This document shows positions 43,048 to 50,527 of a stretch of 50,624 bases of DNA, piece after piece (within the stretch, counting starts at the first letter, position 1; each line of letters starts with the position of its first letter). Made by a program: the position numbers and the translations under genes. Below the pieces are notes generated by a model. That model ran no database searches. It saw only the letters and a program-made list of their open reading frames with translations, and was not told where the DNA came from. The DNA is from Silicimonas sp. GTDB taxonomy: Bacteria; Pseudomonadota; Alphaproteobacteria; Rhodobacterales; Rhodobacteraceae. The DNA lies in NCBI GenBank assembly GCA_022820365.1, contig JAJEFO010000134.1:1-50624 (forward strand). The letters are read 5' to 3'.

Positions 43048-44910
43048 TCAGTACAGAAGGTTCAGGACGCCGAGCGAGACGACGAGGAACAGGATCGACA
43101 TGAATACTCCTGCCCGCATGAAATCGACGACCGAATAGCCGCCCGGTCCCATGATAAGCGCGTTGACCTGGTGCGTCGGGATCAAGAAAGAATTCGAGGT
43201 GGATATAGCGACCGTCAGGGCAAAGAGGGCTGGGTCTGCATCCGCGCCGAGGGCTATGTTCACGGCCAGGGGCACAAGGAGAACGGTGGCTCCGACGTTT
43301 GACATCACGAGCGTGAAGAACGTGGCCAAGACCGCAATTGCGGCCTGGAGAACCCAGAGCGGCATTCCATCCATGGCAAAAAGGATTAGGTCTGCGACCC
43401 AGGCGGCCGTTCCCGTCGCCTGCACCGCTTGTCCCAAGGGAATTAGACTGGCCAGCAGAAAGACGGTTTGCCAACTGACTGCGGCGTAGGCTTCCTCGAC
43501 GGAAATCACTCGACTGAGGATCATTCCGACGGCGCCGACCAGCAGGCAAAGTGAAAGAACGAGATTGGAAAACAGGACCAGCGCGATCGCAATGGCGAAG
43601 AACAGGAGCGCCCAGCCGATCTTCTTGGGCCTTATGTCCTCGTGAGGAAATTCGGTTGTCACCACAACAAAGTCGCGATCCGCCTCCAGCCGCACCAAGG
43701 CCTCCCAAGGCGTGTGACAGACCAGCGTGTCTCCGGCCGCGAGCGGCATGGTGCCAAAGTCCGGGCTGTCCTGCGTGACTGCGTTTCCGCCACGGTAGAC
43801 GATCAACGGCGAAAGCCCGTAGACCTTGCGGAGCCAAAGCTCCCGCATGCTCTTGCCGATAATCCCGGATCCCGGCGGAATCACGACCTCGGCAATGCCT
43901 GCCTTGCCTGGATGGAGCGTTTCCGCAAAAGTCTCGAGTTCCGATGCCTCGGGGAGCTCGAATGCGTCCTTGAAATCCGCTATGTCCCGGGCGTCGGAAA
44001 TTATCGCGAGCTTGGCTGGCGCCTCAATGAGAACGTCCCGCGGCGGGGCGGTGTAGGTCCGGCCCTGGAATGCCGTCGCAATGACCTGGACATTGAATGC
44101 GCGCTGGAGATCGCCCAGCGTATGACCGGCGAGAAGGCTGCCGTGAGGCACGTCGATTTCGTGGATGACGCCGTCAAGCCCGTATGTCGCGTTGAAATAC
44201 TCAAGAGTCGACTGCGCCGCACCGGAGTCGTCGCGCGCGGTGCTCGGCAGCACGAACTTGCCAAACAGGATGAAGTAGAGGAGGCCGGTCGCAACCAAAG
44301 CAATTCCGATCGGCGTGACGGAAAAGAGAGAGTAGGTGTCCATTTGGGCGCCTTCTCCCAGCGTCTCGTTTATGGAGACGAGCAGATCGTTCAGGAGGAT
44401 CAGAGGCGACGAGCCGACCAAGGTCATGGTGCCGCCGAGGATGGCGCAGAAGCCCATCGGCATCAAAAGCCGTGACATGGGCAGGCCCGTTCTCGTGGAC
44501 ACCCGGTTGACCACGGGCAGGAAGAGAGCCGCCGCGCCGACGTTCTGCATGAAACTGGAGATCACGCCGACCGTGGAGGAGATCAGGAAGATGATCCGGG
44601 ACTCTGTTTTGCCGCCGACCCTTGTGATCCATGCCGCCACGGTTGACATCGCACCGGTTCGGTCAAGGCCCGCGCCAATGATCATGACCGCGATGATCGA
44701 GATTACAGCGTTGGAGCCAAACCCGCTGAACAGCTGACGGAGGTCAGCAAGGCCTTCAAGTCCGGGCACCATTGTCAAGAGGCCCAGAAGCACCATGATC
44801 GAGAACGCGGCGACATCGACACGCACGATTTCCGAGACAAAGAGCCCGACGGTAATTGCTAGGATCGCCAGAACGACAGTCATCTCGAATGTAAGGCCAA
44901 GTGCCTCCAC
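43048..44910 (-). CDS. SLC13-family anion permease with two RCK_C (TrkA-C) domains
   Basis: The 620-residue protein has hydrophobic bundles at both ends (about 1-200 and 415-620) and a hydrophilic centre (about 220-400) made of two TrkA-C-like domains; PHGSLLAGHTLGDLQRAFNVQVIA opens the first and PPGSGIIGKSMRELWLRKVYGL the second. This is the layout of DASS/CitT-type SLC13 permeases in bacteria, moving sulfate, dicarboxylates or other anions. The last segment carries SNSFLIPTHQVNALIMGPGGY. The start is GTG 44910; ATG 44883 is possible. It converges with the nucleosidase gene. Confidence 0.9.
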   Translation of the reverse strand: MEALGLTFEMTVVLAILAITVGLFVSEIVRVDVAAFSIMVLLGLLTMVPGLEGLADLRQLFSGFGSNAVISIIAVMIIGAGLDRTGAMSTVAAWITRVGGKTESRIIFLISSTVGVISSFMQNVGAAALFLPVVNRVSTRTGLPMSRLLMPMGFCAILGGTMTLVGSSPLILLNDLLVSINETLGEGAQMDTYSLFSVTPIGIALVATGLLYFILFGKFVLPSTARDDSGAAQSTLEYFNATYGLDGVIHEIDVPHGSLLAGHTLGDLQRAFNVQVIATAFQGRTYTAPPRDVLIEAPAKLAIISDARDIADFKDAFELPEASELETFAETLHPGKAGIAEVVIPPGSGIIGKSMRELWLRKVYGLSPLIVYRGGNAVTQDSPDFGTMPLAAGDTLVCHTPWEALVRLEADRDFVVVTTEFPHEDIRPKKIGWALLFFAIAIALVLFSNLVLSLCLLVGAVGMILSRVISVEEAYAAVSWQTVFLLASLIPLGQAVQATGTAAWVADLILFAMDGMPLWVLQAAIAVLATFFTLVMSNVGATVLLVPLAVNIALGADADPALFALTVAISTSNSFLIPTHQVNALIMGPGGYSVVDFMRAGVFMSILFLVVSLGVLNLLY

Positions 44911-45138
44911 GTTGCCGCCTTTCGTTCGCGTTGTTCAGAGCGTTATGTCTTGAAACCGGAATTCCTGTCCGGATCAATGGGGTCCGGGGAAATTTCCGGA
45001 TTCAGGCGACATTTGCCTGACTTTCGAGACTAGGGCGGATGTCTCGCAAGGTGACATGTTCTTGCCGGAAGCGGCTTGACGATTCCATCGATCGTGCGCC
45101 TTGGCTCTTCAGTCGGGCACATTGCAGATAGCCTGACG

Positions 45139-45609
45139 CTACGATCCGATTCGGGCTGACACGGATCGCTCACGGGCCTCGCGGTCAGCCAACCAGTCCT
45201 CAAATCCCAGGATCGTTTGTCCGGCGGCTACGGACGCACGCCAATCCGCCTGATGGTCAGGAGCTACCCGTTCCGAATCCGGAAGGATGACTCCGTTTAC
45301 CATCCATGATGCGACGGGGATGCCCCTCAACCAGTCCGAGACAGAGGGAATTCGTCGACAATCTTCTCGGACATGCTGTTCCGCGACAAATCGCACCGGC
45401 ACCGCCCGCCCGTCAGAATTGACGAGCGAGCGGCCGAATACCTGCTGCGCCTCAAAGATGCCGTGGCTGTGATGTCTCAGGGCCCGATGGACCGGAAGCG
45501 CTTCATGAGCCTTCGAAGCATCGAACCAGTCATGAATCGCATGATAATCGGCAGGAACCCCACCGAATTTTCTCGCGGAACTTTCCGCATGGTGATTGGG
45601 ATGCGCCAC
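45139..45609 (-). CDS. DUF6915-family protein
   Basis: The 156-residue protein matches the DUF6915 pattern: AHPNHHAESSARKFGGVPADY, HDWFDASKAHEALPVHRALRHHSHGIF and SDGRAVPVRFVAEQHVREDC (near 70), then a DWLRGIPVASWM segment. The function is unknown; the family often occurs on plasmids and conjugative elements. GTG 45609 is chosen because the conserved part starts at once and it lies one base after the DUF6878 stop. The pair would be one operon. Confidence 0.8.
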   Translation of the reverse strand: MAHPNHHAESSARKFGGVPADYHAIHDWFDASKAHEALPVHRALRHHSHGIFEAQQVFGRSLVNSDGRAVPVRFVAEQHVREDCRRIPSVSDWLRGIPVASWMVNGVILPDSERVAPDHQADWRASVAAGQTILGFEDWLADREARERSVSARIGS

Positions 45610-45610
45610 C

Positions 45611-46024
45611 TCAGACGTCCTCGTGGACCGATTCAATGCTATCATAGATGAACGCGACGTGATTGACGTCGATCCGATCCTTGCCAATGTCCCACGTCAA
45701 CGTGCCTTCGCCCCCGTCATCGATTTCAAAGCCGGGATTCAAATTGTATGCGATCGCCCAAATGAAGTCTGCAAGCCTGGTGGCCAGTTCCTTGACCTCG
45801 ACGTCCGTCGGCGACACGGTGACATGGTTTACATTGCCGGAATCGCCGTAGCCGTCGTAACCGGCTTCGACCCGCTCCACGCCTTTGGTGCGCAGCAGGT
45901 CCCGCAGTTCGACACGTTCCCTTTGCCGCACCTCTTCCGCCTTGCGCTCTCTCTCGGCCCAATCCGCTGCCGCAGATGTCTTTGGGCGGCTGTGCCCGTT
46001 TGGGGTGCCTGGGTCATTGGTCAC
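45611..46024 (-). CDS. DUF6878-family protein
   Basis: The 137-residue protein has a charged, helical N-terminus (about 15-50, ADWAERERKAEEVRQRERVE) and then the DUF6878 core: YDGYGDSGNVNHVTV near 60, GFEIDDGGEGTLTWDI near 104 and an acidic C-terminus. No biochemical function is known. GTG 46024 has a strong GGAGGA (46033-46038) eight bases away and is therefore used. Two LexA boxes lie 53 and 86 bp upstream. It is the first gene of an operon with the DUF6915 gene. Confidence 0.78.
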   Translation of the reverse strand: MTNDPGTPNGHSRPKTSAAADWAERERKAEEVRQRERVELRDLLRTKGVERVEAGYDGYGDSGNVNHVTVSPTDVEVKELATRLADFIWAIAYNLNPGFEIDDGGEGTLTWDIGKDRIDVNHVAFIYDSIESVHEDV

Positions 46025-46076
46025 TGTCGAAATCCTCCTTTGCAAACGAATGAAGACCTGCATCAAGACACGTAAT

Positions 46077-46124
46077 GTTCAATTTATGTTCCGACTTTTG
46101 CTTGAGATTGTTCATCATATGTTC
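46077..46124. promoter_or_regulatory. Two LexA (SOS) boxes of alphaproteobacterial type
   Basis: GTTCAATTTATGTTC (46077-46091) and GTTCATCATATGTTC (46110-46124) each fit GTTC-N7-GTTC, the direct-repeat LexA box of Rhodobacter and related alphaproteobacteria. Their starts are 33 bp apart, about three helical turns. They sit directly upstream of the DUF6878-DUF6915 operon and about 380 bp before the divergent ArdC-like gene. LexA binding is inferred from the sequence match. Confidence 0.75.
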
Positions 46125-46502
46125 CATGATGCGCATGTCAAGCCAATCTCTTGGAGCCTTGTCCACGATGGATCTGCAGACCAGCCCGTCAGTTCGATCG
46201 CTGCAAGATTTGTGTGTCCATTCAATCCATTGCGCGGCCTGCGGGCGCATCCTGATCTGGCGGAGTCCCGTAGCGGCCAGTGCCGTCCGGCGACGTGTCG
46301 CGCCGCAGGGACGAATCGGAACACTCCGCCGAATCATGAAATTCGGGCCCCGCGTGAATGATTCGGACGGAAGGACTCCCGAACGGCAGAGCGGAATGAA
46401 GTTCGTCCAACTCTGGGGTGCCGCATGCGCGACCCGTTCAGATCTTCTCTGCAGATCTATTGGGAAGCGTGATCTGCGCAATTTCGAGAGGGAGTCGTGC
46501 CA
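46125..46502. other. Long leader between SOS boxes and ardC-like gene
   Basis: No gene is supported in the 378 bp. A long open frame on the minus strand covers it but crosses the promoter and shows no family features. The plus-strand end carries GAGAGGGAG (46486-46494), the ribosome site of the ArdC-like gene. Confidence 0.4.
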
Positions 46503-47681
46503 ATGTCGATGAAGATCATAACGTCCGGGGTCGAAACCCTGGTGAATCGGTCCGGCGAAAAGTGCCGGTCGATCCGGTTCAATTTCAGGGGGCCGTGTCA
46601 GGAACGTGACGATACGGTCGAACCAGGAGTCTGGCTCCATGTAAGGCACTCCAACACTGCGGCAAAGGCTGAGGTCGAGGAAGGCGCGGCAGCTTCCAGC
46701 GGGTCCAAGGGAAGCCGCAAATCGAGGAAGTCGCCAGGAAAGGTCAGCAGGTCTCGCGAGATTTGCGGATATGTGACCGACGCAATTGTCGATGCCTTGA
46801 CACGAGGCTCCCCGCCTTGGCGGACCCCTTGGCAACCCGGGCGCGGTGCGGCCCTGTTGCCGCTCCGGGCCTGCGGTACGCCGTACCGAGGGATTAACGT
46901 GGTCATGCTTTGGCGCAAGGCAATTTCCATGGGATACTCAGCGCCGTTCTGGATGACCTATCGTCAGGCAGCGGTACGCGGGGGACAGGTTCGCAAGGGT
47001 GAGCGCGGAACGACGGTCATCAAGGTCGGAACCGTGATGCGCGAAAGCGACAATCCGGATGAGGAGCCGACAAGATACGGATACTTGCGATCATATCGGG
47101 TCTTCAATCTGGATCAGATTGATGGCTTGGACGATCAGTTTCGCGCAGCAGCTGATCGGCCCAAGATCTCGGGAGCAGGCATTGACCCCGACTTGATGGC
47201 ATGGTTCCGGCGGCTCGGCGTGGGGATCGAGACTTCCGGGGCGCCGCGCGCGTTCTACGATGTTGCCCGTGACGTGATCCACATGCCGCCCGAAGACTGT
47301 TTCCAGGACGGCGCAACCTACGCCGGCGTGCTGTTGCACGAAACGATTCATGCGACCGGGGCTCCGCATCGGCTCGACCGGCGCTTGAGCGAGGCATTCA
47401 GCGACACCCGATATGCGCACGAAGAGCTCATTGCCGAACTGGGCTCGGCCATGGTGGGAGCATTGCTCGGCATTGAGCCCCGTTTCGAGGAGAACGCGGC
47501 CTATTTGAAGGAGTGGGTCAAGATCCTGAAATCGGACCATCGAGCGATCCTCAAGGCGGCCTCGGCAGCCCAGGCGGCTTGCGACTGGCTGATCACGCAA
47601 GCGGGTGACCTTGCCGGCAAGCCGATTGCTACGAAACATCCAGAGGAGTCCGAGGCGACGACCATATCCCACGGCCATTAG
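46503..47681 (+). CDS. ArdC-family antirestriction protein with N-terminal extension
   Basis: The 392-residue protein has the ArdC N-terminal ssDNA-binding domain (about 85-215; YVTDAIVDALTRGSPPWRTPW, TPYRGINVVMLW, FWMTYRQA, GERGTTVIKVG) and a C-terminal zincin-like peptidase domain with HETIH in LLHETIHATGAPHRL near 278 and HEELIAELGSAMVGALLG near 305. ArdC shields incoming single-stranded plasmid DNA from restriction. About 80 residues precede the usual start, with no recognised domain. ATG 46503 is eight bases after GAGAGGGAG; GTG 46497 is the outer alternative. Confidence 0.88.
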   Translation: MSMKIITSGVETLVNRSGEKCRSIRFNFRGPCQERDDTVEPGVWLHVRHSNTAAKAEVEEGAAASSGSKGSRKSRKSPGKVSRSREICGYVTDAIVDALTRGSPPWRTPWQPGRGAALLPLRACGTPYRGINVVMLWRKAISMGYSAPFWMTYRQAAVRGGQVRKGERGTTVIKVGTVMRESDNPDEEPTRYGYLRSYRVFNLDQIDGLDDQFRAAADRPKISGAGIDPDLMAWFRRLGVGIETSGAPRAFYDVARDVIHMPPEDCFQDGATYAGVLLHETIHATGAPHRLDRRLSEAFSDTRYAHEELIAELGSAMVGALLGIEPRFEENAAYLKEWVKILKSDHRAILKAASAAQAACDWLITQAGDLAGKPIATKHPEESEATTISHGH

Positions 47682-50386: not shown

Positions 50387-50527
50387 AGCACCAAAAACCT
50401 GGGGGTCAATGTGCGTTGTGGAGAAAAAAGTCTCGTGATCCACCGACTGACTCAATGGTGCTTCGGAGTGACTTGAAGCGGCCCTTGCTCGGCGGTGTCG
50501 TCGATTGACCCCCAGGTTTTTGATGCT
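50387..50527. repeat. 141-bp element with 24-bp inverted ends (MITE-like)
   Basis: The 24-bp ends 50387-50410 and 50504-50527 are inverted repeats with one mismatch; their 18-bp core AAAAACCTGGGGGTCAAT is perfect. The 93-bp interior has no gene. The GGGGGTCAAT ends resemble tips of IS21-like and related insertion sequences, so this may be a non-autonomous MITE or a deleted IS. No clear target duplication was identified. Confidence 0.6.

Follow-up and report, generated by a model that had tools for sequence, protein, structure and literature searches.

A divergent gene cluster around two LexA-type boxes

The window analysed here, a 50,624-nucleotide stretch of DNA from Silicimonas sp., contains a short intergenic region flanked by a DUF6878–DUF6915 gene pair on the minus strand and by a leader frame and an ArdC gene on the plus strand. 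The features are listed below; the starts of the DUF6878 and DUF6915 genes were refined from ribosome-binding sites and homologues.

45139–45609, minus strand: DUF6915 gene, GTG start, 156 aa (PF21866, E 4.7e-44)
45611–46024, minus strand: DUF6878 gene, GTG start, 137 aa (PF21798)
46034–46039, minus strand: ribosome-binding site of DUF6878, AGGAGG, read from the sequence
46077–46091, plus strand: box 2, LexA-type, GTTCAATTTATGTTC, exact GTTC-N7-GTTC
46102–46130, plus strand: weaker promoter toward ArdC, TTGAGA-17-CATGAT, 9/12 consensus letters
46110–46124, plus strand: box 1, LexA-type, GTTCATCATATGTTC, exact GTTC-N7-GTTC
46114–46141, minus strand: promoter toward DUF6878, TTGACA-16-TATGAT, 11/12 consensus letters
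46168–46512, plus strand: 114-codon leader frame; its start is conserved and it overlaps the start of ArdC
46497–47681, plus strand: ArdC gene, GTG at 46497 (ATG at 46503 or 46509 as alternatives)

The original prediction had placed two perfect GTTC-N7-GTTC boxes, 33 bp apart, ahead of a DUF6878–DUF6915 pair with ArdC next door. Both boxes are exact and correctly located (33 bp start to start, with an 18-bp gap), and all three protein families are matched by profile. DUF6915 scores 149.1 bits against PF21866 (cut-off 27) over the full profile (positions 1–102 of 102). DUF6878, whose gene lies one base from that of DUF6915, scores 33.4 bits against PF21798 (cut-off 24.3), with its best stretch covering only profile positions 4–47 of 128; by sequence, it is a divergent member of the family.

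A promoter scan of 44900–46700 returned just two promoter-like sites (0.6 expected), both sigma-70-like, which are divergent and overlap at box 1. This box spans the –10 element of the minus-strand site and occupies the spacer of the plus-strand site. Because box 1 overlaps both promoters, a single LexA bound there could switch off transcription either way. Such a two-way reach, possibly including ArdC, would be an addition to the original prediction. The case appears weaker on the ArdC side, where the promoter has only 9 of 12 consensus letters and its columns vary: invariant positions across the genus number 4/6 in the –35 and 3/6 in the –10 element (7/12 in total), versus 6/6 and 4/6 (10/12) for the minus promoter.

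How readily could such boxes arise by chance? Shuffled windows contain a mean of 1.96 GTTCN7GTTC matches, with three or more in 31 of 100 shuffles, and the genome as a whole holds 224, compared to 217 for the reversed pattern, which is no excess. A single match in the window is thus within chance and not significant. Both boxes, however, match the longer form TGTTCN6TGTTC, which is enriched in the window's genome (G000; 25 versus 3 for the control), with 11 of these 25 sites being copies of two repeated sequences. Corresponding counts in the other genomes of the genus are 19/4 (G295), 18/6 (G294), 26/6 (G298), 23/6 (G292), 22/1 (G293) and 26/7 (G296); in G297, the motif is barely above control (8 versus 6). 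Same-strand pairs of GTTCN7GTTC no more than 60 bp apart occurred in none of 300 simulated windows. A chance origin of the boxes is ruled out by this pairing, by their conservation and by their fit to the promoters.

Conservation of the boxes and their likely binder

We searched for the DUF6878 protein in 147 relatives and obtained matches in 16 genomes, including all eight of the genus (G000 and G292–G298). The arrangement of ArdC, boxes, DUF6878 and DUF6915 is present in 8/8 related loci examined. Box 1 is perfect in all eight genus genomes and box 2 in seven, one half-site being altered in G295; box-to-box spacing ranges from 33 to 35 bp. In the eight-sequence alignment, the half-sites are invariant in 15 of their 16 columns. 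From the DUF6878 ribosome-binding site to the leader start, only 46 of the 107 columns outside the half-sites are invariant (Fisher p 1e-4). Among these 107, promoter-hexamer columns outside the half-sites are invariant at 17/24 positions and the remaining columns at 29/83.

It had been proposed that boxes upstream of other DUF6878 genes would serve as a check. They are kept within the genus, as described above, and are absent outside it: none of 11 family loci has a LexA-type box within 300 bp upstream. These 11 exclude a paralogue array in G295 (L177–L181) and L041, and the upstream sequence of L176 is 165 bp only. In a wider search of the order, 52 of 292 genomes matched and 30 loci were kept, of which one (L024) has a box within 300 bp; by eye, this box falls inside a reverse-strand DUF6915 frame, over conserved HAWFD codons. 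Distances were taken from the match start, the frame being unassigned for L008, L010, L016, L017, L019, L021, L023, L024 and L026. Loci L033–L040 appear, from their identities and boxes, to be those of genomes G292–G298 and were not counted as independent. These data argue against the boxes being a general trait of DUF6878 loci.

The window's genome encodes lexA (L001; TIGR00498, E 3.1e-56), and a box, GAACACGGATAGAAC, lies 53 bp before its start. A close box, GAACATAAAGCGAAC, is found 18 bp before the start of an ImuA-like gene, the identity of which rests on a match far under the cut-off of model NF033429 (E 3.5e-6). Upstream of recA there is no perfect box in this genome, and two one-mismatch boxes, GTTCTACTTTTGATC and GAACATAATGCAAAC, are present. 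The recA gene of Rhodobacter sphaeroides is regulated through a GTTCN7GATC site. Other boxes of the window's genome lie within genes or ahead of unrelated genes; hence, the motif by itself defines no regulon. Two boxes, TGTTCGTTCAATGTTC (L064, G000:C37:95227) and TGTTCGCTGTGTGTTC (L060, G000:C26:9922), recur in at least several sister genomes and adjoin proteins with no Pfam or NCBIfam match, which are possible further SOS genes. At L045 (1094–1498), a frame of 134 codons, similar to the C-terminus of an error-prone DNA polymerase, starts 3 bp from a perfect box.

Available descriptions of Caulobacter LexA give GTTCN7GTTC as its consensus (PMC12700426, PMC9578287), and in Dinoroseobacter shibae, in-silico predictions place LexA sites with GTTC- and GAAC-type motifs at lexA, recA and other genes (PMC6473078). 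The window's locus resembles the alphaproteobacterial LexA/SOS regulon in the sequence of its boxes, in their position on a promoter and in the presence of a lexA gene with its own box. It differs from the known regulon in that its target would be a plasmid-type ArdC–DUF6878–DUF6915 cluster, with a single pair of operators probably acting both ways. Where tight DNA-damage control had been read from the tandem boxes, LexA control is well supported at the sequence level by conservation, by placement on a strong promoter and by the lexA box. We regard LexA control of the cluster as likely, and that of ArdC as plausible.

The encoded proteins and their plasmid relatives

ArdC comprises an ArdC-N domain (PF08401) and a zincin-like peptidase domain (PF18818), as does ArdC of plasmid R388 (PDB 6sna, 6i89). 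It matches the R388 structure 6sna with E 2.1e-80, and its peptidase motif HETIH aligns to HEATH of 6sna (HExxH). Unlike the R388 protein, the window's ArdC is chromosomally encoded and fixed, adjoins LexA-type boxes and has an N-terminal stretch of ~88 residues preceding the matched part. ArdC-N is found in all eight genus genomes, each with a copy at this locus. There is a second ArdC-N gene in the window's genome (G000:C3:65698–66039; 325-codon frame), and extra copies occur in G293 and G295 also. Purifying selection on ArdC is evident from dN/dS values of 0.20–0.36 (7 pairs).

R388 ArdC is an ssDNA-binding antirestriction protein, its peptidase domain was likened by the authors to Spartan and IrrE, and antirestriction did not require the peptidase (PMC7213743). 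The same authors observed an SOS response in cells that had received the ardC plasmid and attribute it to the transfer process. Nothing on LexA control of ardC was found in the available portions of PMC7213743 and PMC8744291, in a search made mostly without subscription papers. The type I restriction subunit HsdR is encoded in 5/8 genus genomes and was not found in the window's, all of these being draft genomes. For this reason, the cluster is unlikely to have the easing of type I self-restriction as a common purpose across the genus, and we prefer a putative role for ArdC in protecting ssDNA or removing DNA-bound proteins.

The conserved start of the leader frame follows the boxes in all eight loci. 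Its opening, ATGGATCTGCAGACC, differs by one letter in L035, and in L036 and L037 it is fused in frame to ArdC. The unfused frames span 112–114 codons, except in L034 (49 codons). Substitutions are spread over the three codon positions (21, 16 and 21, window versus L033), dN/dS is 0.55–0.95 (5 pairs) and there is no Pfam match, a combination that speaks against an ordinary protein gene. Because the body is nearly unconstrained, the leader seems to consist of a conserved start followed by what is probably not an ordinary coding sequence.

The DUF6878 and DUF6915 genes are likewise under purifying selection, with dN/dS values of 0.11–0.33 (7 pairs) and 0.08–0.21 (7 pairs, L036 left out), respectively. 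Many His, Asp, Glu and Cys residues are invariant over 43 DUF6915 sequences, and this hints at metal binding or catalysis. Structural models of DUF6878 (mean pLDDT 74.7) and DUF6915 (mean pLDDT 70.9) had no hit in the PDB at an E value of 0.001 or below; PADLOC and NCBIfam matched nothing for the DUF6878, DUF6915 and ArdC proteins. Neither DUF is named in any paper of the literature searched, mostly without subscription papers. In G295 (C8:9456–11731), five tandem DUF6878-like matches in longer open frames (L177–L181) are followed by a DUF6915-like match.

The DUF6878–DUF6915 pair is common on roseobacter plasmids. A tblastn search with DUF6915 matched 224 of 72,556 plasmid records, 123 of them typed conjugative, and a DUF6878 gene is named in 27 of 30 among the plasmid matches listed. 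We inspected four plasmid regions. DUF6878 adjoins the DUF6915 match in two; an unnamed gene occupies its place in one, and another has no annotation there. In region L076, DUF6878 is unannotated and its start was set by eye. Where the two are adjacent, their order is the same as in the window; among the genes nearby in the plasmid regions are those for ParB, DUF3768, strawberry notch, antirestriction and DUF736 proteins. In all four regions, the 300 bp upstream of the pair lack a box, even one with a single mismatch; two regions have one box, far from the pair. On these comparisons, a plasmid origin of the pair is supported. In viruses, the DUF6915 search gave 135 loci, of which 80 were kept, and 111 of 50,697 phage records matched. 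The window's DUF6878 had no relative in the viral scan, and two other members of its family had 1 and 5 loci.

Leading regions of plasmids carry antirestriction genes with ties to SOS, as well as SOS inhibitors acting at DNA entry, according to the accessible text of PMC11541004. The shared element with these anti-defence and anti-SOS genes is the link of antirestriction to SOS; in contrast to the leading regions, the host SOS repressor would here control chromosomal genes.

A probable LexA-controlled region with genes of likely plasmid ancestry

The visible chromosomal flanks of the cluster agree in all eight related loci, with both shared in five and one in three. A citrate-type transporter gene is found in 7/8 and an aldose epimerase gene in 6/8. 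Between DUF6915 and the transporter gene, L037 (4913–7747) and L039 (3925–7016) contain ~3 kb of extra sequence. Elsewhere in the window, positions 50387–50527 form a 141-bp segment delimited by inverted repeats of 24 nt that are 96% complementary. An 18-mer within these repeats has seven copies in the genome, the others being a short pair (C80:12556–12684), a pair 1.87 kb apart (C68:104–1972) and one single copy; the segment looks like a short, non-autonomous relative of an insertion sequence.

Given the constant chromosomal flanks and the purifying selection, the cluster looks like plasmid cargo that has been recruited to the SOS response rather than an active mobile element. The variable chromosomal location that is a hallmark of such elements is not seen, and the suggested role in mobile-element transfer is unsupported for the window's copy. 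That the cluster belongs to a still-mobile element that times its transfer by SOS is, in our view, very improbable. The abundance of the pair on plasmids, many of them typed conjugative, would be in keeping with this idea, but the constancy of the flanks and the lack of boxes before the plasmid pairs argue against it.

The reading we consider probable is that the intergenic region acts as a control region, repressed by LexA in both directions, for genes that came from the plasmid pool and are now fixed in the chromosome. LexA bound at box 1 would block both promoters to RNA polymerase; box 2, at a distance of about three helical turns, would strengthen repression. As ssDNA accumulates, RecA would trigger self-cleavage of LexA, after which ArdC and DUF6878–DUF6915 would be made together from both sides. 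The most speculative steps are that ArdC would bind ssDNA and either protect it or clear it of bound proteins, and that DUF6878 and DUF6915 may be co-acting DNA-handling factors like those carried by plasmids. In favour of a bidirectional switch we count the exact, conserved boxes, the enrichment of TGTTCN6TGTTC, the boxes at lexA and the ImuA-like gene, the one-mismatch boxes at recA, the divergent promoters, the four-part arrangement, purifying selection on three genes and kinship with R388 ArdC. We count against it the lack of genomic excess of GTTCN7GTTC, the weak and variable plus promoter, the one imperfect copy of box 2, the absence of a perfect box at recA, the finding of HsdR in only 5/8 genomes and DUF models without a match to a known fold.

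Might LexA govern DUF6878–DUF6915 alone, with ArdC expressed constitutively or from a promoter nearer its start? We think this somewhat unlikely. The plus promoter is indeed weak (9/12) and variable, and the window's ArdC start lies ~370 bp from box 1, across a leader that is nearly unconstrained. On the other hand, no other plus-strand promoter-like site was found in 44900–46700, the leader start after the boxes is conserved in 8/8 loci, and its in-frame fusion to ArdC in L036 and L037 lies ~40 bp from box 1. Considerably less probable still is that the boxes serve a different repressor, one reading GAACATA-N3-TGAACA. Boxes 1 and 2 are closer to each other than to the lexA box; yet they match the alphaproteobacterial LexA consensus GTTCN7GTTC in the accessible accounts (PMC12700426, PMC9578287), the ImuA-like gene has a close box, and no regulator was recognised among the cluster genes.

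We tentatively propose that a plasmid-type module of ArdC and DUF6878–DUF6915 was captured by the chromosome and rewired by a tandem LexA operator, yielding SOS-inducible handling of ssDNA or DNA-bound proteins; DUF6878 and DUF6915 would then be new damage-response proteins, a possibility we hold with rather less than even confidence. The LexA boxes offer a regulatory handle on the DUF6878 and DUF6915 families, and the locus suggests that plasmid antirestriction genes can turn into host DNA-damage genes.
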